From assembly GCA_011390785.1 (NCBI GenBank), contig JAABRR010000009.1:62001-126000 (forward strand): 64,000 nt of DNA, given 5' to 3'. Made by a program: the position numbers and the translations under genes. The DNA is from Sphingobacteriia bacterium. Lineage in GTDB: Bacteria; Bacteroidota; Bacteroidia; Bacteroidales; UBA7960. Of the stretch, positions 726 to 62,009 are shown piece after piece; the first letter of the stretch is position 1; each line of letters opens with the position of its first letter. The notes under the pieces were generated by a model that saw only the letters and a program-made list of their open reading frames with translations, was not told the origin of the DNA and searched no databases.

Positions 726-786
726 AAAACCCTTAATTTAGTTGAAAATTACTTTTTGGATGATAGTATTTACAAGATTAGAGTTT

Positions 787-2091
787 ATGTGTCATGGATG
801 GTTTTCTTTTATCAACAATGTTTGCTGCATTGGCTTTCGCCCATCTTATTTCAGGCTGGTTTCTGTTTTGGCGATAGTACTTTTTGCTCCGGCTTTGGTG
901 GGGCAGGAATTAGTACAATTCAGCATAAAACACGAGTTGGAAACTATAAATGCACCTGTTTCCATTCAGCTTGATGGGGTTAACTATAATACCGACAAGG
1001 GCAGCCTGGTACTCTACGAAATAACTCCACAGGGCGAAAAAGTAATCCCCTGTCAGTTGGAAACCGGGCATGGAGCAAGGCTTTGGTTTATCCTGGACGG
1101 TATTACAACCCCAAATACGAACCGGACATATGTTATCAGGCGGCAAGATGTTAACCTTGGGCAAGGGCAGGTGAGCATTAACAAAGATCATAAGGATTTG
1201 AAATTGGGAAAAGGTGACCGACCGGTTTTAAGCTACCGCTATGCAGTTACTTACCCCCCTGATGGTGCTGATCCGCTGTTCCGGCGTTCGGGTTTTGTGC
1301 ATCCCGTATGGTCACCGGGCGGGGAAGTATTATCGCGCATACAACCACCCGATCATTACCATCATTACGGGATCTGGGGGCCATGGACAAAAACCACCAT
1401 CGATGGCCGTGAAGTTGATTTCTGGAATCTTGCCTTTGGGCAGGGAACAGTAAAGTTCGCTGGTTTTCTATCTGAAACGGAAGGCAAGGTGTTTAGCGGA
1501 TTTACAGTTTTGCAACAACATATCGATTTTGGAGCGAAAGGGGAAGATCAGGTGGCTATGAATGAAATTCTCGACCTTAGGGTTTGGAATTCGGCTGATA
1601 GCCTATGGATGGTTGATTACACCACTACTCTCAACAGCCCGCTTCCCAATGGTATTATGCTAAATGCCTACAGATATGGTGGTGGCATTGGCTTTAGGGC
1701 AACCGAAAAATGGCATGCTGATAATTGCACGGTACTTACTTCCGAAGGAAAAACACGGATGGATGCCGATGGATCTTCCGCCCGGTGGTGTATTGTGGAA
1801 GGCGAATCAGATTCCCCTGAAGGACGGTCCGGCATTTTGTTTCTCAGTCATCCATCCAACCGTATGCACCCCGAACCGATGCGCATATGGCCTTTGGATG
1901 CCAATGGAGGCCGGGGAGATATGTTTTTTGAGTTTTGCCCCATAAGGCACAATGACTGGAAACTCGAATCCCGGCAGGATTATACCCTTAAATACAGGAT
2001 GATTGTGTTCGATGGTAAAATGGACCCACAAACAGCAGAAAGATACTGGAATAGTTTTGCGGCAATGCCCCGGGTTGAGATATTGAAATAA
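787..2091 (+). CDS. Secreted DUF6807 (PmoA-like) family protein
   Basis: About 434 residues from the ATG at 787. The frame stays open upstream to a TTG at 742 and an ATG at 760, so the start is not certain; 787 was chosen because a Phe/Arg n-region and a hydrophobic segment (LVSVLAIVLFAPALVG) then make an export signal. The mature part has the DUF6807 hallmarks: HPVWSPGGE, then a His-rich DHYHHYGIWGPW, followed by DFWNLAFGQG and further on GILFLSHPSNRMHPEP. The family's old name PmoA (methane oxygenase) is misleading and its biochemical role is unknown. DUF6807 genes recur in Bacteroidota sugar loci next to Gfo/Idh/MocA oxidoreductases, as here. The conserved His cluster could bind a metal or sugar; that is inference. 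Confidence 0.8.
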   Translation: MCHGWFSFINNVCCIGFRPSYFRLVSVLAIVLFAPALVGQELVQFSIKHELETINAPVSIQLDGVNYNTDKGSLVLYEITPQGEKVIPCQLETGHGARLWFILDGITTPNTNRTYVIRRQDVNLGQGQVSINKDHKDLKLGKGDRPVLSYRYAVTYPPDGADPLFRRSGFVHPVWSPGGEVLSRIQPPDHYHHYGIWGPWTKTTIDGREVDFWNLAFGQGTVKFAGFLSETEGKVFSGFTVLQQHIDFGAKGEDQVAMNEILDLRVWNSADSLWMVDYTTTLNSPLPNGIMLNAYRYGGGIGFRATEKWHADNCTVLTSEGKTRMDADGSSARWCIVEGESDSPEGRSGILFLSHPSNRMHPEPMRIWPLDANGGRGDMFFEFCPIRHNDWKLESRQDYTLKYRMIVFDGKMDPQTAERYWNSFAAMPRVEILK

Positions 2092-2136
2092 TTTTGTCCT
2101 TTATGAGTAATAGGAAACGAATAGAAAACACAAAAA

Positions 2137-3048
2137 ATGGGAGATAAATCTGTATTGAAATACTTCATCATGTTGGCACTGGGTACTTTTTTGAGTATTC
2201 AGTCAGTTTACTCCCAACTTACCGTAACCGCTGAAAGGGTAGGCGATAAAATAGAGTTTCGTTTTGATGGAAAGCTCTTCACGAGTTATATTTTGTCAGA
2301 ATTTGAAAAATATCCTTTCTTTTTCCCTGTCAATGGCCCTTCAAATGCAAGTGTAACTGCCATGAGGAATGCCAATTTTCCGCACCACAGTTCCCTGTTT
2401 TTTGGGTGTGATCATGTAAACGGAGGCAATTACTGGCAGGAGGGACTGGATGCCGGGCAGATAATATCTATCCGTGCTGATATACTCGAAACGGATGGAC
2501 CAAAAGCGGTAATTGAGAATGAATGTATCTGGCGAAGGCCTGGTGCAGATGCTCCTGTTAAGGACAAGCGAAGGATCACCATATCAGCACCTTCAAAAGA
2601 TAAGTACTTCATCGATTTCGATATAACCATGGAAATGTTGATGGATGTTTCCATTGATAAAACCAATCATTCGCTTTTCAGTGTGCGTATGGACCCTGAT
2701 CTGGCAGTAATAAACGGAGGAACAATGATAAATGCCGAAGGAGAAACTTCTGAGCAGGGCACATTTGGTAAGCCATCAGCGTGGATTGATTTTTATAGGC
2801 CAAGGATGGGGAAGACAGAAGGTATTGCCATTCTACAACATCCATCAAACACATGGTATCCTTCACCCTGGTTTACACGCGATTATGGTTTCTTTTCGCC
2901 AACACCTATGTTCTGGCCTGAAAATGACAGCAATACTTTCCTTGAAAAGGGACAGAAGGTAAAACTGAGATACAGGGTGATCGTACATTCAGGGAACCAT
3001 TTAGAAGCCGATATTGCCAGTGAATTTATAAGATACTCCAACGAATAG
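2137..3048 (+). CDS. Second DUF6807 (PmoA-like) family protein
   Basis: 303 residues with an N-terminal export signal ending near VYSQL (residues 1-26). Family features are the FPHHSSLFFGCDHVNGGNYW segment around residues 84-103, the GIAILQHPSNTWYPSPWF stretch near residue 230 and the closing YRVIVHSG. It is shorter than the preceding gene and clearly divergent from it, so the pair are old paralogues rather than a recent duplication. It starts 45 bases after its neighbour and is probably co-transcribed with it and with the two following oxidoreductase genes. Function is unknown; context suggests periplasmic processing or binding of sugars. Confidence 0.82.
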   Translation: MGDKSVLKYFIMLALGTFLSIQSVYSQLTVTAERVGDKIEFRFDGKLFTSYILSEFEKYPFFFPVNGPSNASVTAMRNANFPHHSSLFFGCDHVNGGNYWQEGLDAGQIISIRADILETDGPKAVIENECIWRRPGADAPVKDKRRITISAPSKDKYFIDFDITMEMLMDVSIDKTNHSLFSVRMDPDLAVINGGTMINAEGETSEQGTFGKPSAWIDFYRPRMGKTEGIAILQHPSNTWYPSPWFTRDYGFFSPTPMFWPENDSNTFLEKGQKVKLRYRVIVHSGNHLEADIASEFIRYSNE

Positions 3049-6271: not shown

Positions 6272-9200
6272 ATGAACCGAATCAACACTATTGTGCTATC
6301 CATGCTTCTTTTAATCGGTACAGCAGGATTTGTAAGTGCACAAAATGCTGTCAGAGTTAAAGGAACCGTAACTGATCATCTCTCAGAAACTCTTGTAGGT
6401 GCCAGTGTAGTGATAGCAGGAACTCAAATTGGTACCGTTACAGATATAAATGGGTATTTTGAAATCACAGTGCCTGCAGAATACAATGAACTGATCATTA
6501 GCTTCATAGGTTATTTGCCTGAAAACGTGGCTATTGATAAATTATCAGGAGTTGAACAATCGATTGCAGTGAGCTTATCGCCCACCATTGAATCGCTGGC
6601 AGAAGTAGTGGTAATCGGTTACGGTACAGTAAAAAAAGAAAACCTTACTGGTTCCGTTTCGGTTGTTACATCAGAGGAATTAACAAGAACCCCAATTCCC
6701 AATGTAAGCCGGGCAATACAGGGTCGTGCTTCAGGGGTTGTTGTTTTCCAGGGTGGCGAACCCGGTGGTGGTGTAAACATGAGGGTAAGAGGTATCGGAT
6801 CAATTACCCGCGACCCCGATCCTATTTTTGTTGTGGATGGTGTTGTGGGAGTGGATATAAATTCCATTTCACCTGAAGATATAGCGTCGGTATCAGTCCT
6901 CAAGGATGCATCCTCTACTGCAATTTATGGTGCCAATGGTGCCAATGGCGTTATCATCATAACCACCAAAAGAGGGAAACCATCTGATACACCCAACATT
7001 AACTTTTCTGCCAGCATGGGTACAAGTTGGGCTCCGCAACGGTTCGACCTTATGAATGCTGATCAATACGCTGCGTTTTTTAATGAGGTCAATGAACTCA
7101 ATAATACTGCATCACACATTGCTTATACCGATAATTTCAGACAACAATATTATAATGGCGACTGGCGCATGGGTACCGATTGGCAAAGTGAAATACTACA
7201 GGAAAACATGACCCAGAGCTATTACTTTAATATTAACCAGGGTACTGAAAGAAGTAATTATAGTCTGTCATTTAACTACCTCGATGAAGAAGGATTACTT
7301 CTAAACTCTATGAGTAACCGGTTTAACATCAGGGCCGTTTCCGATTTCAAGATCAATAATTACTTTAAGATTGGCGAAACCATCAGTCTTACCCGAAAAA
7401 TGAACACTTCCCCCGATAATTCGGCCTGGGGGATGGCACTGGAATCTACTCCACTAATGAACATTTCTAATCCTGATAATAAAGGTGGCTACGAAGGAAC
7501 CCAGATTAACTTTGATTATACCACCGAGGAGGGAGAATCTGCTACAGCGCTGAATACCGGAGGTAACGATAAATTCAACCCTGTTGGGATACTTTCTATT
7601 CCCGAACGAAACCGAACCTATGACAATATTCTGGCCGATGTATATGTTGAATTTAAGCCCCTTCAGAATCTCACCCTTACTTCAACCGGTACAGTAAATG
7701 CTTACTTTAATGAATCGCACAACTGGCTCCCTTCCTATAATATGGGAACCCGCAGTGTTACTTCTACAAGTTTGTCGCAATCCAATTCAAGAGGCCAGAC
7801 ATTTAATCTTAAAAACCAGGTGAATTATTATGCCGATCTGGGTAAGCACTATATCGAAGCCACAGCAGTGCATGATGTAAGCAAAAGCTCATCGAGAAGC
7901 ATTAATGGGAATGCCTCCGATTTTCCATACGAACAACTGGCAGTGATCTCACAGGGTATATTAAGAGATGTTGGAGGGGGCGAATATGAAGGGTCACAAT
8001 TATCCTATCTGGGTAGGATAAACTACAACTACGATTCAAAATATCTCATCTCTGCCAGTATTCGCCGTGATGGTAGCCCTAATTTTATGAAAGGGCGCCG
8101 TTGGGGAACCTTTCCTGCTTTTTCTGTTGCCTGGAAAGTTAATGAAGATTTTCTACAGAATGTAAATGAGATCGATATGCTGAAGGTAAGGTTTGGTTGG
8201 GGAAAAACAGGTAACTCCAGAGTTGGTTCCTTCGCTTATACTACCCGTATCGGCTCTCCCAACTATTTTCGACCCGTTTTCGGACTCACTTCCACACAGG
8301 CGTATGCCCTGAATGAAGATATCTGGACACCTCCCGGCAACCCCTTTATTCAATGGGAAGCTGCCGAAATGACCAATTTTGGGATCGATTTAAATGCCTT
8401 CAACAACAGAATTCAGTTTTCGGCAGAATACTATCTTAAAACCCAGGATCAGTTGATCATGAAAGTTCCTATTTCTCTGGTTCATGGAAAGGGAGTAAAC
8501 TGGAACCCAGGATATCCTGATATCAACATTGCCGAACTTCAGAACAAAGGATTCGAGTTCGACCTCAGATACAATAAAAAGGAGGGTGATTTCAATTACA
8601 AAGTATTTGCTAATCTCTCTACCGTTGATAACAAAGTAATCAGTATTCCATCTTCATTGATCAATAACAACAACATAACCATGGAAGGGCATCCTATTGG
8701 AAGTATTTATGGTTATGTGGCCGAACGGATTCTTCAGGAGTCTGATTTTGATGAACAGGGGAACTACTTGCACGAAATGCCTGCAACCGGAATGCCGCAG
8801 CCCGGCGACCTGAAATTCATGGATGTGAATGGCGATAGCATAATAAATGATGACGACAGAACCATCATAGGTTCACCTATACCTGATTTTACTTATTCTT
8901 TCGGTATAGAAATGTATTACAAAAAATTTGATTTCTCTGTCTTTTTCTATGGTATCCAGAATGCTGAAATACTCAATACCATGCGAAGTAAGGTGGAATC
9001 ATTCCGCTCGCAGGATATGGATCATAATAAAACCGCTGATTGGGCTGCCAATTATTATGGGAAAGACGGAATCCCTTCTACCGAATATGTCAGAGCCGAT
9101 AGGAATGATACCAATCTCAACAGCCGACCATCTTCGTGGTGGGTAGATGACGCTTCCTTCCTGCGCCTTAAGGATGTTCAGATTGGCTATACCCTGCCCC

Positions 9201-9397
9201 GAAGTATTCTTCAAAGAGTTGGATTTAAGAATGCCCGCATCTATGTGAGCGGAATGAATTTATACACCTTTACCCGATATAAAGGGTATGACCCGGAATC
9301 ACCACTAAACTCAGACGATCCGAGAACTCCCGGAGTGGACAATAACAAATACCCTATCCCTCTCACATTCACCGGTGGTATTCAGGTAACTCTGTAG
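6272..9397 (+). CDS. SusC/RagA family TonB-linked outer-membrane transporter
   Basis: 1041 residues, the usual length. Order of domains: signal peptide ending near SAQNA (about residue 24), a carboxypeptidase-regulatory-like beta-sandwich (VRVKGTVTDHLSETLVGASV to GYLPENVAID), the plug (VVVIGYGTVKKENLTGSV, the SusC signature, to YGANGANGVIIITTKRGK) and a 22-strand barrel ending in an aromatic-rich strand. It should bring a glycan oligomer across the outer membrane, powered by TonB, with the SusD-like lipoprotein encoded 156 bases downstream as its lid. The absence of an anti-sigma/sigma pair nearby suggests control by another type of regulator. Confidence 0.95.
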   Translation: MNRINTIVLSMLLLIGTAGFVSAQNAVRVKGTVTDHLSETLVGASVVIAGTQIGTVTDINGYFEITVPAEYNELIISFIGYLPENVAIDKLSGVEQSIAVSLSPTIESLAEVVVIGYGTVKKENLTGSVSVVTSEELTRTPIPNVSRAIQGRASGVVVFQGGEPGGGVNMRVRGIGSITRDPDPIFVVDGVVGVDINSISPEDIASVSVLKDASSTAIYGANGANGVIIITTKRGKPSDTPNINFSASMGTSWAPQRFDLMNADQYAAFFNEVNELNNTASHIAYTDNFRQQYYNGDWRMGTDWQSEILQENMTQSYYFNINQGTERSNYSLSFNYLDEEGLLLNSMSNRFNIRAVSDFKINNYFKIGETISLTRKMNTSPDNSAWGMALESTPLMNISNPDNKGGYEGTQINFDYTTEEGESATALNTGGNDKFNPVGILSIPERNRTYDNILADVYVEFKPLQNLTLTSTGTVNAYFNESHNWLPSYNMGTRSVTSTSLSQSNSRGQTFNLKNQVNYYADLGKHYIEATAVHDVSKSSSRSINGNASDFPYEQLAVISQGILRDVGGGEYEGSQLSYLGRINYNYDSKYLISASIRRDGSPNFMKGRRWGTFPAFSVAWKVNEDFLQNVNEIDMLKVRFGWGKTGNSRVGSFAYTTRIGSPNYFRPVFGLTSTQAYALNEDIWTPPGNPFIQWEAAEMTNFGIDLNAFNNRIQFSAEYYLKTQDQLIMKVPISLVHGKGVNWNPGYPDINIAELQNKGFEFDLRYNKKEGDFNYKVFANLSTVDNKVISIPSSLINNNNITMEGHPIGSIYGYVAERILQESDFDEQGNYLHEMPATGMPQPGDLKFMDVNGDSIINDDDRTIIGSPIPDFTYSFGIEMYYKKFDFSVFFYGIQNAEILNTMRSKVESFRSQDMDHNKTADWAANYYGKDGIPSTEYVRADRNDTNLNSRPSSWWVDDASFLRLKDVQIGYTLPRSILQRVGFKNARIYVSGMNLYTFTRYKGYDPESPLNSDDPRTPGVDNNKYPIPLTFTGGIQVTL

Positions 9398-9552: not shown

Positions 9553-11253
9553 ATGATGAAACGATTTATAATTCTTTTCTTTATTTCTCTGGGTTTTTTT
9601 CAATCATGCACAGATGATGTGCTTGATATAGAGAATAAAAATAACCTGACCATGGAAAACTGGTACCAAACGGCGGATGATTTCCAGGCAGCAATTAACT
9701 CGTGTTATGTCCATTTTATGTCAAGAGGCATGTTTGCCTTGAGATACAATAACTCGGTAAGCACATGGGAAGATCGCACCCTGTTTGAAACAACAGGTAA
9801 CGACAGGCTTTTGGAGATGACACCCTCAAGCGAACTGGTTACAGATATTTACCAATCGCTTTACCATGGTGTTTATCGTACAACCCAGGTACTAATAAAA
9901 CTGAATGAAAAAGGGGTGGCCGGTATTGAAAACATGACCCAGGATAATTACAACTACATTGCTGCACAGGCAAAAGCCTTAAGAGGTATGTCTTATTTCT
10001 ACCTTGTAGTGTTTTTTGATACACCCATACTTTACAATGAGACCACTTATTCCGATGAATACATGGCCGATCTGAGCAATGGTGATCGTGAAGAATTGTG
10101 GGCTCAGATTGAAAAAGACCTAAGCGAGGCGGCAGTGCATCTGAAATTACGCAGTGAGCTAACACCCGATGAATTTGGCCGGATTACCAAAGGGGGTGCA
10201 CTTGCTCAGTTGGGCAAATCATTGCTTTACAAGCATTATCATTTGTATGAGAGATTTGGTAATGGTAGCTCGGCAGAAGCTCAGGCCGATCTTCAACGAG
10301 CCCGGGATGCCTTTCAGCAGGTGATCAACTCCAATGAGTATATGCTCATACAACCCCAGGAACCCAAAACCGAACTGGATTATCTCTATGCACTTTTATC
10401 CAATACATCATTTGTTGATCTGGTCTCAGAGAATAACACCTATATGGCAGAAAACAACCGTGAGTCGGTATGGGAAGTTCAGTTTGATGATGCTATGGCA
10501 CAGGGAAACAATCAGTGGTTTAGCGGCTACTACAGCAGTGGAGCACTCAACTCACAATGGTATTCACCCCTTCCTTCCAGCTACAAAAACTGGGAAGTAC
10601 ACCCCGCCATGTACCACGCTTTCGAAACCGAAGGGGCACCCGAAGGCTTCGATGCTGATCCCCGCCGAAAGGGTTCAATATATTCCAACGGTGATCTGCT
10701 GGATTTTGATCCCGCATCGCAATATTACAAACCCTTCAATGGTGTAACTATGGTTAAAAGGGTTGCTTTGTTGCGCAACCTGCCAAACCGGATTGGTTTT
10801 GGCGTAGGAGTAAAGAAAAGCCACTTCCCGGTTTATTATGATGGAAACCAGGCTCCTTTTAACGACCCGGTAAACAAAAGGGTAATCAGGTATGCCGATG
10901 TGTTGCTCATGTATGCTGAGGTGATGTACCTGCTGGGTGATGATGGCACGGGATTAAATGCCCTCAACGAGGTGCGCCAGAGAGTTGATATGCCCGTGAT
11001 AAGTGCACTCACTACCGAAGCAATTATTCACGAAAGAGATATTGAGCTCTGCTTCGAAGGCCTCAGATGGCTCGACCTGGTTAGGTGGAGTTTTTCCTCA
11101 CAATGGAATATCAACTGGAATAATATTGATTGGGGTATTGATGCCACCAATTCAGTTAACCCGTTTGTGGTTGGCCGAAATGAATACCTCCCCTTCCCGG
11201 TTTCAGAAATTGATGTAAACGGAGGGGGGCTAAAGCAAAATTCTGGTTATTAA
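9553..11253 (+). CDS. SusD/RagB family nutrient-binding lipoprotein
   Basis: 566 residues with a lipoprotein signal (Cys19 in FFQSC). The helical TPR-like fold of SusD is seen in ADDFQAAINSCYVHF, AAQAKALRGMSYFYLV (residues 135-150) and the family end motif with ERDIELCFEGLRWLDLVRW near residue 494, then NEYLPFPVSEIDVNGG close to the C-terminus. It partners the SusC-like transporter just upstream and sits on the cell surface to capture the glycan. The glycan is not known; the SusC/SusD pair has no sequence feature that tells me the sugar. Confidence 0.95.
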   Translation: MMKRFIILFFISLGFFQSCTDDVLDIENKNNLTMENWYQTADDFQAAINSCYVHFMSRGMFALRYNNSVSTWEDRTLFETTGNDRLLEMTPSSELVTDIYQSLYHGVYRTTQVLIKLNEKGVAGIENMTQDNYNYIAAQAKALRGMSYFYLVVFFDTPILYNETTYSDEYMADLSNGDREELWAQIEKDLSEAAVHLKLRSELTPDEFGRITKGGALAQLGKSLLYKHYHLYERFGNGSSAEAQADLQRARDAFQQVINSNEYMLIQPQEPKTELDYLYALLSNTSFVDLVSENNTYMAENNRESVWEVQFDDAMAQGNNQWFSGYYSSGALNSQWYSPLPSSYKNWEVHPAMYHAFETEGAPEGFDADPRRKGSIYSNGDLLDFDPASQYYKPFNGVTMVKRVALLRNLPNRIGFGVGVKKSHFPVYYDGNQAPFNDPVNKRVIRYADVLLMYAEVMYLLGDDGTGLNALNEVRQRVDMPVISALTTEAIIHERDIELCFEGLRWLDLVRWSFSSQWNINWNNIDWGIDATNSVNPFVVGRNEYLPFPVSEIDVNGGGLKQNSGY

Positions 11254-11424: not shown

Positions 11425-12546
11425 ATGAAGAAAAGAATCTTTACTTTTTTAATGTTTGGCCTTTTGGCTGCTAATTTAATGGCGCAACCTTTTACTTGCG
11501 TTAACTGGGTAAACATGGCTGATGAGCCTGATTATGCTGCTACCCCTTTTGACAAACCCACCTATTCTGCTTTACCAACCCCTGCAGATTGGACTTTCAA
11601 TGCTGAAACACTTGATTTTGATGCCGCATGGGCTGCTGCCGGTGATGAAGCGTTTATTTCCAAGGCAACCAACGTAGTTGGTGGCGACCCTTATGATTTA
11701 GGTGATGGAGATACCTACGGTGCAAGCTGGAAAGCCATGTACGATGAAACCAACCTTTACGTTTTGATCAAGTGGATCGGCGTTGATTTAGGTACCGATG
11801 GATTTACCAATTTAGAGATCATGTTCCAACCCACGGCAATTGATCGTTACGAACCTGATTTTACTGCTGCTGCCGGTGATGTTGTGCTTCAAAACCATTC
11901 CTATGCCCGTTATCTGGAACTTGGTGGCGGCAAGGCTGTATTTAAGGATGCACTCGTTACCGAAGTTGCAGCATCAAAGGGGCTGACAGCTCAATGGAGT
12001 GCCAATGAACATGCTCTCACCGAACTGGCTCTGGCTACCCACTATTGGGTTAAAGATGGCAATATGATTAAAGCCGTTATGGTACTCCCATTAAACGCCC
12101 TTTCCATTCCAGATGCTCCATTTGAAGATCTTTCAGTTAGAACTCCATTGGAAATTGTTCCCAATGAAACAAAAATTGCCTGGGATATGAAATCCAATCA
12201 AAGAATTAACGAAGGTACAAACGACGATAAGATTGAATATTGCTGGTCTTCAAATGCCAACAATGTTTACGCCGTTAATTATTATGCCGGTTACCTTTTG
12301 TTTGCTCAGGATAACACATCTGTAACCGATATTTCAAAAGAAGAAGTGTTGGTCTATTATGCAAACAACAATCTTACTATCAGCGGAATTGAACCAACTG
12401 ATGTAAAGATTTACAATCTGGCCGGTATGCTGGTTGGCTCATATAAAAATGTGACATCCGGTATCAACCTTGGTGATCTGAACAATGGTATTTACATTGT
12501 ACAGTTGAACAACAGTAACAAAGCTCACAAAATTGTTAAGTTCTGA
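11425..12546 (+). CDS. Secreted CBM9-like domain protein with T9SS type A sorting signal
   Basis: 373 residues. A signal peptide (residues 1-20, ending LMAQP) is followed by a single beta-sandwich domain of the CBM9 / DOMON-like type: WAAAGDEAF, then SWKAMYDETNLYVLIKWIG around residues 107-125, typical of the family. The last 75 residues are a T9SS type A C-terminal domain (VKIYNLAGMLVGS, then LNNGIYIVQLNN and KIVKF at the end), so the protein is exported by type IX secretion and probably anchored on the surface. With SusC and SusD upstream it is likely a surface glycan-binding protein of this locus, a SusE-like role; no catalytic residues are evident. Confidence 0.85.
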   Translation: MKKRIFTFLMFGLLAANLMAQPFTCVNWVNMADEPDYAATPFDKPTYSALPTPADWTFNAETLDFDAAWAAAGDEAFISKATNVVGGDPYDLGDGDTYGASWKAMYDETNLYVLIKWIGVDLGTDGFTNLEIMFQPTAIDRYEPDFTAAAGDVVLQNHSYARYLELGGGKAVFKDALVTEVAASKGLTAQWSANEHALTELALATHYWVKDGNMIKAVMVLPLNALSIPDAPFEDLSVRTPLEIVPNETKIAWDMKSNQRINEGTNDDKIEYCWSSNANNVYAVNYYAGYLLFAQDNTSVTDISKEEVLVYYANNNLTISGIEPTDVKIYNLAGMLVGSYKNVTSGINLGDLNNGIYIVQLNNSNKAHKIVKF

Positions 12547-12978
12547 CCAGGGTTTGGGAGTATTGACAATACTCCTCTTTACTTTAGGCATTTTTAATGC
12601 ACATTTTCATAGAATGTAATGTTTGGGAGGCTGTTGCGAAACATCCTCCCTTTTTTATCGTCTTTCTGGTATTTCTTCCAGAAGGATTAGCGTAGGTTAA
12701 AATTTCTCATTTCCTTCTTTTTTTTATCCCAAAGCTACATTTATTCAGAAAAGAACAGACTACGAGGCACTTTGAGATATTTTTACAATGCCCTGTAATT
12801 CTGCCGGTTGTATTTTCTTCGCAAAACATCATCCGGTAATACGTTTTGCTGGCCCGGAGGTTATTGCAATATTTGGAGTAGTCTCAAATGCCATATTTGT
12901 GCTATTTTTTGTAATATTTCAAAACCAATTCCCGAATTAAAATTGGAATGTTTATCTTCGTAAGCGATCACTTAAAGT
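12547..12978. other. Intergenic region between locus 1 and the regulator gene
   Basis: Besides the two terminators this stretch is AT-rich and shows no coding frame. TATCTTCG at 12953-12960 is a one-mismatch fit to the TAnnTTTG -7 box, but it is only 18 bases from the regulator ATG. Confidence 0.5.
12556..12657 (+). terminator. Two consecutive terminator hairpins
   Basis: The first is an 8-bp stem (GGAGTATT / AATACTCC, 12557-12575) followed by TCTTTACTTT. The second pairs GGGAGG (12625-12630) with CCTCCC (12645-12650) and is followed by six T. Together they insulate locus 1 from the regulator gene downstream. Confidence 0.65.
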
Positions 12979-15900
12979 ATGTTCCGATTTGCCATCTCTT
13001 TTGTGTTGTCTTTTTTTGCCTCCTTTGTTGGGGGGCAGGAGGATATTCGGTTTAGTCATCTTACCACAAAGGATGGGATGAGCCAAAACTCTGTGCTTTG
13101 CATTCACCAGGATGATTACGGGTTTATGTGGTTCGGAACAAGGGATGGCCTCAATTTGTATGATGGTGTTGGCTTTAAAACGTTTTATCACAGCTATACC
13201 AATGAAAGCTCCCTAAGTAATAGCTATATCAACCATATTGCCGAAGATGCAAATGGCGATCTATGGATCAGTACAACCAACGGATTGAATCGTTATAAGC
13301 GTGATGCCGAAAGGTTTGAACGATATTATATTCCTGGAATTGACGGAGAAAGCCCTATGTTTTTTTCTTTTCAGGACTCTTACGGAACACTATGGATTGG
13401 TGCCAGTGACGGGCTTTTTATATTCGACTGGGAAACAGAAACCCTGAAACCTTATGAGTTTAAAAATATATCGGGTTCATTTCCCGACAGACAAGTCTCC
13501 TACATTTTACAGGACCATAAGGGATCAATAATATTTGGGACATACTCCAATGGAATTTTTATTTATGATCCGGTAAACTCTGCAATTAAGAATCTGAATA
13601 CCCATTCCGAACCCTCTCTAAGCAGCAACAATGTTCAATCAATCGTTGAAGACAATGACCATAATATATGGATAGCATCCGATGGCGGAGGTGTAAATAT
13701 CTGGAACAGATCTGCCAATGAAATCACTAAAATGAATTTGGAATCCCATCCTGAACTTAGCAGCAATGTAGTTCGCACATTGTTGAGTGATGGAGATCAG
13801 AATATCTGGATTGGTTCTTTCAACGGACTATCTGTTTTTAACCGGGAAACCCAAAAACTGAGTATTGTTGAAAGCAATGAGCACAACCCCTACAGTTTAA
13901 ATAACAATGCTATACGATCTCTTTTTCAGGATAATAAAGGTACTGTGTGGGTAGGCACTTATTTTGGCGGGGTGAATATATATGATCATGTAAATCAAAG
14001 GTTTAAGCATCACAATTATACCCCCGAGCTGGAAGTGCCACTCGACTATAATGCCATAAGCGCTATTGTGGAAGCCCCAAATCTTAGCCTATGGATCGGA
14101 ACGGATCGCGGCGGACTAAACCATTACAACTACACCACCCGAAGATACAGTTATTATTTACCTGATGACGAGATCAGTGATGCCGAACCCATGTTTACCA
14201 TCAAATCGTTGTTGCAACAGGATGAAAATACTTTATGGGTGGGCACACACCGCCGGGGATTGTACCGGTTTGACATCCCAAACAGAAGGTTCAGAAGAAT
14301 ACCCTTACCTGTTTCAGAAGAATCAACCACGTCGTCGCTTACCAATTCCGTAATCAACTCCATGCATTGGGATTCTAAGGGCCACATCTGGTTGTGTACA
14401 AGAAGCTATGGTGGTTTGTATAAGTTTGATCCGGTAAGTGAGATGATAGTCCCCTTCGTAATGCAGGAAAAGATACATAAACTGCTGGGCAGCACGCACG
14501 TGAGATCGGTATTTCAGGATAATTTCGGTAATGTGTGGATTGCAACCCGTGGCAAAGGGATCATTATTTTTAATGAAGAGAATAGATTTTTAGACCATTT
14601 CTATCATGATCCTTTACAACCAGGCAGTTTACGGTCTAATCATATCTATCAGATTGAACAGGACAACAACGGGGAAATATGGGTGGCTACCGATGGCGCA
14701 GGAATAGCACGATTCGACAGGCTGTCAGGAAGTTTTGATTTTTCCGTATCAGATGAAGGGTTACTCAATAACAAGGTGCTGGGGATCCTGGTTGATGATT
14801 ATGACAATCTGTGGTTCAGCACCATTAAGGGTATTTCAAGGTATCAAAAAGGGGACTCGCTGTTTAAAAACTATGACTTTGCAGCCGGCTTGCCCATTTC
14901 AGAGCTTGCTGAAGGAGCATTTCATAAAGGTAGATACTCAGGCAAACTCTACTTCGGCGGAGTGGATGGATTTATTGAGATCAGCCCCCAATCCTTTATT
15001 GACAACGACCATATTCCTCCGGTAATCATCAGTGGCTTCAAACTGTTTTCTGAAGAAATAAAACCCAGTGATGGCAGCGGTATAATGCAGAAGTCAATTC
15101 TTCACACCAATGAAATCAGGTTGAAGTATAATCAATCCATTTTTACCATTGATTTTGTTGCGCTCAATTTTACCCACCCCGCCAGCAACCAGTATGCCTA
15201 CATGCTCGAAGGGCTTGAGAACTCATGGAACTATGTTGGTTCTCAGAACTTTGCCACCTACACCCTGTTGAATTCGGGTAAATACACATTTAAGGTAAAA
15301 GCGGCCAATAATGATGGATTATGGAATGATGAGCCTGCAACCCTCGATATTATTATTTTGCCTCCACCCTGGCAAACATGGTGGGCCTATCTTATTTATT
15401 GTTTGCTTATTGCTGTGATTTTGTACTTTATTCGGTTTTTCATCCTGAAAAATGAGCAATATAAAAACAGTACCATCATTAATGAAATGCAAAAGGCCAA
15501 ATTGCAGGAGATCAACGAAGCAAAAATTGATTTCTTTACACAGGTTTCCTATGAGCTCCGAACGCCTCTTACCCTTATTATTGCCCCCATAAAAGAGCTC
15601 GTAAAAACCCGCGGAATGAAACATGAAGTTCGTGAAAAGATCAGCCTTATCAGAGACAATGCTCAGCTACTCAATCAACTGGTAGATCAAATCCTGGATT
15701 TCAGGAAGCTGGAGACCGGGAAGGAGAAGCTAAGAGTATCTCACGAAGATTGGGTTTCCCATATCAGAAACATTACTTCCCATTTTACAAGCTATTCTAC
15801 TTACAGAAACATCAGTTTCAGTTTCAGATCAGCCAAACGAAATATTTTTGGAATGATTGATACAGCGCTGGTAGGTAAAGTTCTTTTCAATCTTATTTCC

Positions 15901-17139
15901 CACGCTTTTAAAAACACACCTGACAAGGGAAAAATTAAACTAACGGTAGCAGAAGCAAACCTGAACGAGGCTCCGGAGCGACTAACCGATAAGTACCAGA
16001 ATTACAAACAAACAGGAAATGCTTTTCCGGCAGGCCAGGATATAATCATCATTACCATTGAAGACAACGGCATCGGCTATACCAGGGAGGAGATGGAGAG
16101 TATATTCGCCAAGTTTTATGATATGCAGGGGGCCAATTCTGCCCGCACGGGTATTGGGCTTTACATCGTAAATAATATTGTACATCTGCACAGGGGATTT
16201 ATTGAAGTAAGCAGTGAAAAGCACAAAGGAACAGTTTTTAGCCTTGTTTTTCCACTTGCAAAGGGCAGCTATTCTCAGAGTGAGATAATTGACAAGCCAT
16301 CAACCGAACTTTCAGACATCTACAAACCACTGATGCCCACAACCCTGGAAATTACAAGCCAGCAAACAACCTTAGACGAAAATGCCCCTAAGCTATTGGT
16401 GATTGAAGACCAGCCGGAGCTTTCAAATTACATGAATTCGATTTTGCGAAACGAGTATCATATTCGTTCCGCCACCGCCGTGAACGATGCATTTTCTATC
16501 ATGCGCACTGCATTGCCTGATATAATTCTATGCGATATTAACCAGAAACCTTCTGATGTAATTAAGCTTTGCTTAAGGCTGAAAAGGATAAAAGTACTGG
16601 AGTCGGTACCCATTGTAATAATTTCTGCAAATCAATCGGAAGAGTTCAGGATACAAAGCTATGAAGCCGGCGCCAATGCATTTATTCTAAAGCCTTTTAC
16701 CCCTGATCTGTTAAAGGTTAGAATTAAAAGCCTGCTTACAGATAAGAAGAATGAAAAGATTCAGGGCGAAATTGATCTGGCTTCAAAATTTATTTCAGGT
16801 GCCGATGAGAAACTATTGCGAAACATCGATTCTATTATCAGAAAAAGTTTATCTGATCCCCGTTTAAGTGTTGAAACCCTCAGCAAAATGATCGGACTAA
16901 GCCGCGCCCAGTTTTACAGAAAAATAAAGGAACTCACAGGGCTTACCGTGGTGGAATACATCAGATCAAAAAGATTGGATGAAGCAGCATTTTTGCTTAG
17001 GCAGGATAAACTCAGCATAAAGGAAGTTGTTGGACTTACCGGTTTTGGCGATATGGATTATTTCAGAACCCATTTTAAGAAAAAATTTGGAACCACTCCA
17101 TCCAATTATATGGAACAGGAAAGAAATAAGAAGCAATAA
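12979..17139 (+). CDS. Hybrid two-component system regulator (HTCS) with altered kinase residues
   Basis: 1386 residues. Order: signal peptide (1-20), some 14 propeller repeats of the Reg_prop type (repeated WIGT/WVGT and GLNxYD/GGVNIYD motifs), a Y_Y_Y domain (YMLEGLENSWNYVG, about 735-790), one membrane helix (801-825), HisKA, HATPase_c, receiver (1140-1252) and an AraC-type DNA-binding end (1290-1386). HTCS proteins sense an oligosaccharide in the periplasm and switch on the adjacent PUL. Here the HisKA motif reads FFTQVSYELRTP, with Tyr858 where the phospho-accepting His belongs, and the ATPase N-box reads NLISHAFK, with His975 for the usual second Asn. G1 (DNGIGY), G2 (GIGLYIV) and the receiver residues Glu1143, Asp1144, Asp1186 and Lys1238 are present. 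It likely controls the uronic-acid genes downstream. Confidence 0.93.
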   Translation: MFRFAISFVLSFFASFVGGQEDIRFSHLTTKDGMSQNSVLCIHQDDYGFMWFGTRDGLNLYDGVGFKTFYHSYTNESSLSNSYINHIAEDANGDLWISTTNGLNRYKRDAERFERYYIPGIDGESPMFFSFQDSYGTLWIGASDGLFIFDWETETLKPYEFKNISGSFPDRQVSYILQDHKGSIIFGTYSNGIFIYDPVNSAIKNLNTHSEPSLSSNNVQSIVEDNDHNIWIASDGGGVNIWNRSANEITKMNLESHPELSSNVVRTLLSDGDQNIWIGSFNGLSVFNRETQKLSIVESNEHNPYSLNNNAIRSLFQDNKGTVWVGTYFGGVNIYDHVNQRFKHHNYTPELEVPLDYNAISAIVEAPNLSLWIGTDRGGLNHYNYTTRRYSYYLPDDEISDAEPMFTIKSLLQQDENTLWVGTHRRGLYRFDIPNRRFRRIPLPVSEESTTSSLTNSVINSMHWDSKGHIWLCTRSYGGLYKFDPVSEMIVPFVMQEKIHKLLGSTHVRSVFQDNFGNVWIATRGKGIIIFNEENRFLDHFYHDPLQPGSLRSNHIYQIEQDNNGEIWVATDGAGIARFDRLSGSFDFSVSDEGLLNNKVLGILVDDYDNLWFSTIKGISRYQKGDSLFKNYDFAAGLPISELAEGAFHKGRYSGKLYFGGVDGFIEISPQSFIDNDHIPPVIISGFKLFSEEIKPSDGSGIMQKSILHTNEIRLKYNQSIFTIDFVALNFTHPASNQYAYMLEGLENSWNYVGSQNFATYTLLNSGKYTFKVKAANNDGLWNDEPATLDIIILPPPWQTWWAYLIYCLLIAVILYFIRFFILKNEQYKNSTIINEMQKAKLQEINEAKIDFFTQVSYELRTPLTLIIAPIKELVKTRGMKHEVREKISLIRDNAQLLNQLVDQILDFRKLETGKEKLRVSHEDWVSHIRNITSHFTSYSTYRNISFSFRSAKRNIFGMIDTALVGKVLFNLISHAFKNTPDKGKIKLTVAEANLNEAPERLTDKYQNYKQTGNAFPAGQDIIIITIEDNGIGYTREEMESIFAKFYDMQGANSARTGIGLYIVNNIVHLHRGFIEVSSEKHKGTVFSLVFPLAKGSYSQSEIIDKPSTELSDIYKPLMPTTLEITSQQTTLDENAPKLLVIEDQPELSNYMNSILRNEYHIRSATAVNDAFSIMRTALPDIILCDINQKPSDVIKLCLRLKRIKVLESVPIVIISANQSEEFRIQSYEAGANAFILKPFTPDLLKVRIKSLLTDKKNEKIQGEIDLASKFISGADEKLLRNIDSIIRKSLSDPRLSVETLSKMIGLSRAQFYRKIKELTGLTVVEYIRSKRLDEAAFLLRQDKLSIKEVVGLTGFGDMDYFRTHFKKKFGTTPSNYMEQERNKKQ

Positions 17140-17650
17140 TTTGCGGTTTTTCTGACTCCATTCTTGCCTGTTTCCCCAACAAAGATGAATTTAACATACC
17201 CTGTTTTTTTAATCTTAAGCATCATCGTTTTGGGGAAAGTAGTACATATTTCTAAAAGTATTTATGAGTTTGTTTAACAGTAAGTTATAATTGATGGTTG
17301 AAAATTGACTGCATCAATTATCACCCACAATCATGCAACATTTGTGGGGTATGTCTCTGTTATTTTTACACCTTTTTAGTAAACCACCCTGTGTTTTTGA
17401 AACAACTTCGTAATGATTGTTTCTGGGCTTAGCAGTAGTTTAGCGTAATGAAATATTTACTACATGAGTGGATTGTTAAATTCAGACATATTAATAAGCA
17501 AAATAAATATTTTATTATAGAAATGGTCCTTTCATTGCTCTTAATTGGAATGTTGATAGTGTTTATTAATATCTTAAAAATAATCTGAAGTCTTCATCTT
17601 TTTAATAGAACGAATTAATCAATCTCAACCCAAAAATAATATTATCCGAA
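17140..17650. other. Long intergenic region between HTCS and TonB receptor genes
   Basis: About 510 AT-rich bases. HTCS regulators usually bind upstream of their target genes, so the operator for the following locus is expected here, but I see no clear direct repeat. The one coding candidate is the 46-codon frame at 17448-17588, listed separately. Confidence 0.4.
17448..17588 (+). CDS. Possible small membrane protein (46 aa)
   Basis: An ATG-started frame encodes 46 residues with a basic N-terminus (KYLLHEWIVKFRHINKQNK) and one strongly hydrophobic helix (FIIEMVLSLLLIGMLIVFI), ending in ILKII and TGA. The charge pattern predicts a single-pass protein with its N-terminus in the cytoplasm. It ends 62 bases before the TonB receptor gene. 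There is no recognisable homologue or Shine-Dalgarno sequence, the region is AT-rich, and hydrophobic frames arise by chance in such DNA, so this is tentative. Confidence 0.25.
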   Translation: MKYLLHEWIVKFRHINKQNKYFIIEMVLSLLLIGMLIVFINILKII

Positions 17651-61205: not shown

Positions 61206-62009
61206 ATGATCAACAAACAAAAATGGTACGATATTATCTTCGGAAGTGACACCCCGGCTGGTAAGAGGTTTGATGTAATATTGCTTTGGGTGATCGCATT
61301 AAGTGTTCTTACGGCCATGTTTTAAAGTGTGCCCGGCATGTCTTCCCAACTGAAAAGAGTGCTTTTGATTGCTGAATGGTTTTTTACTATACTTTTCAGC
61401 ATCGAGTATTTTGTGCGTATATACATAAGTCGCAAACCACACAAATATATTTTCAGCTTTTGGGGTATTATCGATTTTGTGGCTATTCTGCCTTCCTACA
61501 TCAGCTTGTTCTTTTTTGGCTATCAGTACCTGCTGATTGTGCGTATTGTTCGCATGCTCAGGGTATTTCGGGTTTTAAGGATGGTAAGGTTTAGCAGCGA
61601 AGCACAAACCTTGCTCACTGCCCTGAGGGCAAGCATGTACAAAATTGGAATATTCTTTTTTGCAGTCATTTGTATTGTTGTAATTCTTGGTACGTTGATG
61701 TATGTGGTAGAAGGGCCGGAGAACGGCTTTATCAGTATTTTCCAGGGAATCTACTGGGCTATTATCACTATTACTACTGTGGGGTATGGTGATATTGTTC
61801 CCACTACAGTGTTGGGTAAGGTCATATCATCGGTTTCCATGATGATTGGCTACGCCATTTTAGCTGTGCCCACCGGCATAGTAACGGTGGAAATGTCGCG
61901 CAGTGTAAACAACAGCAACACTTGCTCCCATTGTGGCTTTGGAAACAGTCCGGTTGCCAACTACTGTAACCACTGCGGAACGCAGCTTAATACAGAAAAG
62001 AGTGAATGA
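61206..62009 (+). pseudogene. Voltage-gated K+ channel gene interrupted by an in-frame stop
   Basis: The frame from ATG 61206 reads MINKQKWYDIIFGSDTPAG, then the S1 helix FDVILLWVIALSVLTAMF, then TAA at 61323-61325, and continues SVPGMSSQLKRVLLIAEWFF in the same frame to 62009. Homologous channels have LESVP-type wording here, so a Glu codon to TAA change explains it. Downstream are S2-S4 with regularly spaced Arg (RIVRMLRVFRVLRMVRF), the pore with selectivity filter TVGYGD, S6, and a C-terminal zinc ribbon (CSHCGFGN, CNHCGTQL). A restart at GTG 61329 would make a 226-residue protein lacking S1. It is a recent pseudogene, a read-through gene or a sequencing error. Confidence 0.8.

Follow-up and report, generated by a model that had tools for sequence, protein, structure and literature searches.

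The 64,000-nucleotide stretch of DNA analyzed here (the window; positions 62,001 to 126,000 of contig JAABRR010000009.1, assembly GCA_011390785.1) comes from a Sphingobacteriia bacterium placed within the Bacteroidales. It carries a gene (12979-17139, forward strand) for a 1386-aa regulator derived from a hybrid two-component system (HTCS). In Bacteroides, HTCSs form one of the main groups of proteins that regulate the use of polysaccharides (PMC11253607), and the model for their signaling is a phosphorelay. The regulator is an HTCS by descent, which probably no longer uses its own His-to-Asp phosphorelay: its phospho-accepting His and an Asn of the ATP site are replaced, and conserved positions of the receiver have changed to an extent seen in no His-bearing homologue compared.

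The gene is one unbroken open reading frame, as stated by an earlier, sequence-only reading, which had described a frame uninterrupted over 4.1 kb. Pfam analysis showed the chain Reg_prop, Y_Y_Y, HisKA, HATPase_c, Response_reg, HTH_18 and HTH_AraC, with each domain exceeding its own cut-off (e.g., HisKA with 41.2 bits versus 26.9). The sensor, HisKA, HATPase_c, receiver and AraC-type helix-turn-helix (HTH) of an HTCS thus occur on a single chain, while a PAS domain was not listed at E values up to 0.001. The following parts were distinguished, all on the forward strand: (i) a periplasmic Reg_prop propeller (residues about 25-725; 13051-15153), (ii) a Y_Y_Y domain (residues 730-794; 15166-15360), (iii) a HisKA domain (residues 849-914; 15523-15720), (iv) a HATPase_c domain (residues 963-1094; 15865-16260), (v) a receiver domain (residues 1140-1249; 16396-16725), and (vi) an AraC-type HTH_18 DNA-binding domain (residues 1301-1379; 16879-17115). 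Two PDB entries assigned by name to two-component or hybrid two-component proteins, 4a2l and 12aw_A, match residues 9-799 and 1138-1382.

In kinases of this type, Mg is bound by the second N-box Asn. In the regulator, the N-box reads NLISHAFKNTP (residues 971-981), in which Asn971 is kept and His975 (codon CAC, 15901-15903, forward strand) replaces the second Asn. The HisKA motif, FFTQVSYELRTP (residues 852-863), contains Tyr858 (codon TAT, 15550-15552, forward strand) at the position of the phospho-accepting His. Both replacements had been proposed by the sequence-only reading and were confirmed by the codons and by comparison with homologues. In a first comparison, all 85 homologous kinase cores (not de-duplicated) have the His and all 85 have the Asn. 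Separately, L048 and L049, which come from two different uncultured Bacteroidales genomes, were observed to have identical HTCS kinase-core motifs. The second comparison was performed with non-redundant cytoplasmic parts of HTCSs, whose HisKA and HTH ends were both required to match the profile. Among 276 hits, 75 were excluded (52 without the HTH end and 23 without the HisKA start), and the 201 left were reduced to 181 by removal of the query's own copies and of duplicates. The His is present in 179 of these 181 proteins and the N-box Asn likewise in 179, with the same two exceptions at both sites, and neither Tyr858 nor His975 occurs in any of them. Three of 182 proteins (including the regulator) therefore lack both residues and none lacks just one; this His-less rate is a lower bound, since very decayed kinases may have been missed through the requirement for both ends. 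The G2 box, described earlier as intact, reads RTGIGL, with Arg in place of the first Gly, but this change is not diagnostic, because the same Arg is found in 4 of the 179 His-bearing HTCSs.

The receiver is the most altered part of the protein. Of its 24 conserved columns (defined as at least 85% conserved among 67 non-redundant full-length HTCSs), 11 are changed, which ranks first among 68 proteins (mean of the 67 homologues 1.15, standard deviation 1.21, maximum 4). The replacements are G1168V, M1189Q, P1190K, G1194V, H1209S, I1210V, L1215I, T1216S, G1227S, D1233N, and Y1235F. The result was similar with the wider set and a threshold of 80%: 12 of 26 receiver columns are changed, a number reached by none of the 179 His-bearing proteins (maximum 7). 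Changes in the conserved columns of the other domains are ordinary: 3/40 in the propeller, 0/5 in Y_Y_Y, 1/13 in HisKA (the phospho-acceptor itself being the sole changed column), 3/20 in HATPase and 0/10 in HTH. The earlier description of the receiver as intact is thus valid for the acidic pair, the Lys and the phospho-acceptor position Asp1186 (codon GAT, 16534-16536, forward strand), but not for the family-conserved columns. In total, all five catalytic positions are filled (E1143, D1144, D1186, S1216 and K1238); the regulator receiver is therefore not a pseudo-receiver according to the definition given in PMC12632262, by which any one of five conserved residues has to be missing.

Several of the altered positions have roles proposed for the HTCS family. 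In most HTCSs, an S/CHIP-DK motif forms the contact between the receiver and the DNA-binding domain and keeps the latter off; when the S/C-H residues were replaced, the inhibition was relieved and the fragment bound DNA without phosphorylation (PMC11253607). In the regulator, ESVP (residues 1208-1211; 16600-16611, forward strand) replaces the S/CHIP part of this inhibitory interface, which consequently reads ESVP-DK and not S/CHIP-DK. The motif is not universal, as its full form was found in 109 of the 179 His-bearing HTCSs. The strand-5 Tyr and the Asp two places earlier, discussed as parts of the switch (PMC11253607), are Phe1235 and Asn1233, respectively.

The extent of these changes bears on the simplest alternative, i.e., that Tyr858 results from an assembly or sequencing error (CAT to TAT). 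One transition would suffice for this, and the assembly, which is available without reads, consists of 158 contigs. However, His975 and 11 receiver columns are also changed within the same open frame, which excludes a single error as the cause and makes this explanation highly improbable.

The same receiver data are relevant to the possibility that the domain is phosphorylated in trans, with either another kinase (e.g., within a mixed HTCS dimer) or a small molecule such as acetyl phosphate as the donor; the kinase part would then serve only as a dimer scaffold and sensor. The five catalytic positions were kept while other conserved columns changed, so phosphate could still be accepted from elsewhere. 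Moreover, the genome encodes other HTCSs, and both residues, the His and the N-box Asn, are present in each of the 10 for which cytoplasmic parts were compared; receivers also accept phosphate from phosphoramidate in vitro (PMC11253607). The sequence-only reading had named a partner kinase as a potential phosphate source, and the retained catalytic residues speak for it, but conserved neighbors of the acceptor do not: the positions of Met1189, Pro1190 and Gly1194, the strand-5 Tyr and the interface are all changed, which fits relaxed use of the phospho-switch, and the annotated neighbors of the gene include no visible partner kinase. Overall, we consider phosphorylation in trans unlikely.

That the regulator does without its own phosphorelay also agrees with the distribution of evolutionary rates along the chain. 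For each domain, the tip branch was compared with the median tip among 68 proteins on a fixed topology, namely that of the full-length tree. The branch of the propeller is 1.08x the median (rank 31 of 68) and that of Y_Y_Y together with the membrane part 0.93x, whereas the values for HisKA and HATPase are 1.93x and 2.45x, and the receiver, with 4.11x, ranks first of 68. The sensor is under the constraint usual for HTCSs, whereas the phosphorelay parts, and the receiver most of all, are not; the contrast between 1.08x for the sensor and 4.1x for the receiver shows which parts are still needed.

The trees did not agree on the nearest relative of the regulator: L027 and L052 are its sisters in the full-length tree (support 0.995), and L226 and L192 in the cytoplasmic tree (support 0.79), all four being His-bearing. 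Among the matches listed, the best full-length identity to the regulator was about 35% in searches of 59 relatives, of a contig collection of 84,980 species queried by peptide patterns (78 loci), and of 393 order, 12 genus, 395 class and 395 phylum genomes (these sets overlap, and the last of them only sample larger groups).

The two other His-less proteins, L183 and L190, are encoded in one genome (G057). L183 (also L232; 4568-8893) has Asn at the His site and Arg at the site of the second N-box Asn, while L190 (also L233; 6700-10785) has Arg and Tyr, respectively. Both resemble the regulator in the loss of the two residues and in the changes in the receiver (9 of 26 conserved columns in L183 and 12 of 26 in L190), but they are more decayed, as they have also lost the first N-box Asn, Gly residues of the ATP lid/box and receiver catalytic residues (D1144A in one case, D1186T plus K1238L in the other). 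Their receivers are consequently pseudo-receivers in the sense of PMC12632262. L183 and L190 are placed apart from the regulator in the tree, each next to His-bearing proteins, so their His losses look independent of that in the regulator. In all three cases, the loss of the His accompanies the loss of the N-box Asn (3/3, versus 0/179 of the His-bearing proteins, with two of the three sharing one genome) and a decayed receiver. An analogous coupling with the loss of the interface motif was considered and rejected: the full S/CHIP-DK motif is present in 0/3 His-less versus 109/179 His-bearing proteins (Fisher p 0.063, not significant), and the motif His is kept in two of the three.

A further explanation is that the regulator is being lost, as a protein that has long been inactive or is subject to drift, its neighboring genes being unregulated or under another factor. 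The loss of the phosphorelay is the loss of the known mode of action of an HTCS, the receiver, ATPase and HTH branches all exceed the median, and the sensors of the two other His-less HTCSs evolve fast as well. This is opposed by the open frame of 1386 codons, by the median rate of the propeller and Y_Y_Y, and by the conserved columns, of which 0/10 are changed in HTH and 1/13 in HisKA. In addition, by a back-of-envelope estimate the receiver has about 1.2 replacements per site in excess (119 sites), and a dead gene with so many should have acquired stop codons. We regard this explanation as improbable. Of the earlier suggestion of a recently inactivated regulator, "recent" is not supported, since with a receiver branch about 4x the median the change had time to accumulate, and inactivation itself is weakened by the open frame and the normal sensor rate.

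A regulator that is retained and works without its own phosphorelay is also compatible with structure prediction. The 255-residue regulator fragment, predicted together with 22 relatives, gave a predicted template modeling score (pTM) of 0.52 and a mean predicted local distance difference test score (pLDDT) of 90.2. When the His-bearing L027 (CHIP-DK) was placed first, with the same 23 sequences, the values were 0.77 and 89.1. Each of the two domains in the fragment is thus predicted to be well folded, but their placement relative to each other is uncertain; a lower pTM has been described for the majority of HTCSs with a non-conserved domain position (PMC11253607). A fold search was run with the fragment of the regulator, and its 50 best rows extend over the receiver half (highest Z 20.6, root-mean-square deviation 1.3, 119 aligned; highest Z for the L027 fragment 22.4); the domain has thus retained the receiver fold. 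12aw_A was not among these best 50 rows.

From these data a possible mode of action may be outlined. A kinase carrying Tyr858 and His975 would be unable to autophosphorylate on His, and a receiver with ESVP at the interface would no longer hold the DNA-binding domain off. The regulator might then sit on DNA as a membrane-tethered dimer, in which ligand binding could be relayed to DNA by a shape change through the kept HisKA dimer; alternatively, it may be a standing activator or repressor of the neighboring uronate-polysaccharide genes. Signaling by conformation, one of the options raised by the sequence-only reading, is accordingly favored here over the others, as the losses reach the lock between the receiver and the DNA-binding domain and the rate of the sensor is normal.

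Several observations weigh against this interpretation. D1276 and K1315, the half of the lock contributed by the DNA-binding domain, are retained, and all five catalytic positions in the receiver are occupied. The HTH branch is 2.10x the median, which tells against a fully unchanged output. The propellers of L183 and L190 evolve at about 2.5x the median rate, so that these proteins may be decaying as a whole; both keep the motif His (FHIP-DR and THIP-DR), in line with the non-significant coupling of the two losses. Finally, the pTM contrast is that of one pair, the regulator and L027.

A broader proposal is more tentative, and we consider it possible but doubtful: HTCSs could become membrane-tethered one-component regulators, losing first the phospho-His, and then the ATP-site Asn and the receiver switch and lock, while the ligand signal would reach the AraC domain via a shape change of the HisKA dimer. 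This might have occurred several independent times, the regulator being the case in which the sensor is still fully constrained. Since its frame is open, its sensor constrained and its receiver devoid of switch and lock, the regulator offers a natural test of whether an HTCS can signal without phosphate.

Upstream of the regulator gene, a SusC/SusD pair (6272-9397 and 9553-11253) and a small protein with a type IX secretion system (T9SS) tail are encoded, and two DUF6807 and two GFO/IDH/MocA genes are located further upstream in the cluster. The DUF6807 genes form an adjacent pair (742-3048 of the window) beside the GFO/IDH/MocA oxidoreductases at the cluster start. Downstream, genes for a TonB receptor, a T9SS-tailed protein, two proteins with an alginate-lyase fold and a GH88 protein follow. 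Judging by these predicted functions, the cluster would be directed at a polysaccharide that contains uronate. The best match of SusC in 98 relatives is a paralogue of the same genome (50% identity), followed by proteins with 41-43%. Another locus of the genome (L131; contig C92, 7894-17429) carries a SusC/SusD pair about 48/46% identical to that of the window and a larger homologue of the 373-aa T9SS-tailed protein; the 20 kb read there contain no HTCS match. As candidates for an orthologous gene cluster, the L027 and L052 loci were rejected, because they have no neighbors in common with the cluster of the window apart from HTCS matches.

The region upstream of the regulator gene contains a triple imperfect direct repeat (12864-12919, forward strand) with a spacing of 24 and 21, composed of the units TTGCAATATTT, ATGCCATATTT and TTGTAATATTT. 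Its score was reached by none of 60 shuffles and is the best of 148 window tiles (27, versus 23 for the next). A second good copy was not found in the genome by BLAST, while repeats upstream of the TonB receptor gene (17140-17650) are at the level of chance and those upstream of SusC are weak. The triple repeat is a candidate regulatory site, which the regulator described here or another one might bind. A search for sigma-70-like promoters within 12500-13000, with a consensus that does not cover this phylum, found none.

The typical HTCSs BT4663, BT4124 and BT1754 have the same domain chain as the regulator, but, in contrast to what is proposed here, rely on His-to-Asp phosphotransfer, and tested fragments of such proteins bind DNA better, or only, when phosphorylated (PMC11253607). 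A closer counterpart is BT4236 of Bacteroides thetaiotaomicron, which carries CSIP-EK and Gln848 in place of the phospho-His and has been put forward as phosphorylation-independent (PMC11253607). Compared by that paper's description only, BT4236 shares with the regulator the HTCS architecture, a replaced phospho-His and Ser at the position of the motif His (CSIP versus ESVP), and differs in the replacing residue (Gln versus Tyr). According to the same paper, most non-consensus HTCSs are tied to host-glycan genes, whereas the regulator lies among genes for alginate-lyase-fold and GH88 proteins. The single remark on BT4236 in that text is extended here by three further His-less proteins, all without the N-box Asn. 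Outside the HTCSs, DivL of Caulobacter has Tyr550 at the phospho-His position and is reported to lack kinase activity and to have been repurposed (PMC4211667). Both DivL and the regulator have Tyr at the His site and a preserved HisKA fold, and the DivL structure (PDB 4q20) matches residues 839-993 of the regulator (E 9.5e-13). DivL differs in that it has PAS domains, lacks a fused receiver and DNA-binding domain and senses DivK~P, while the regulator has a propeller, a receiver and an HTH; moreover, the Tyr of DivL is conserved in most of its homologues, and for the regulator no orthologue is known. With one named precedent among HTCSs (BT4236) and one outside them (DivL) in the sources cited, the regulator is a rare but precedented variant.

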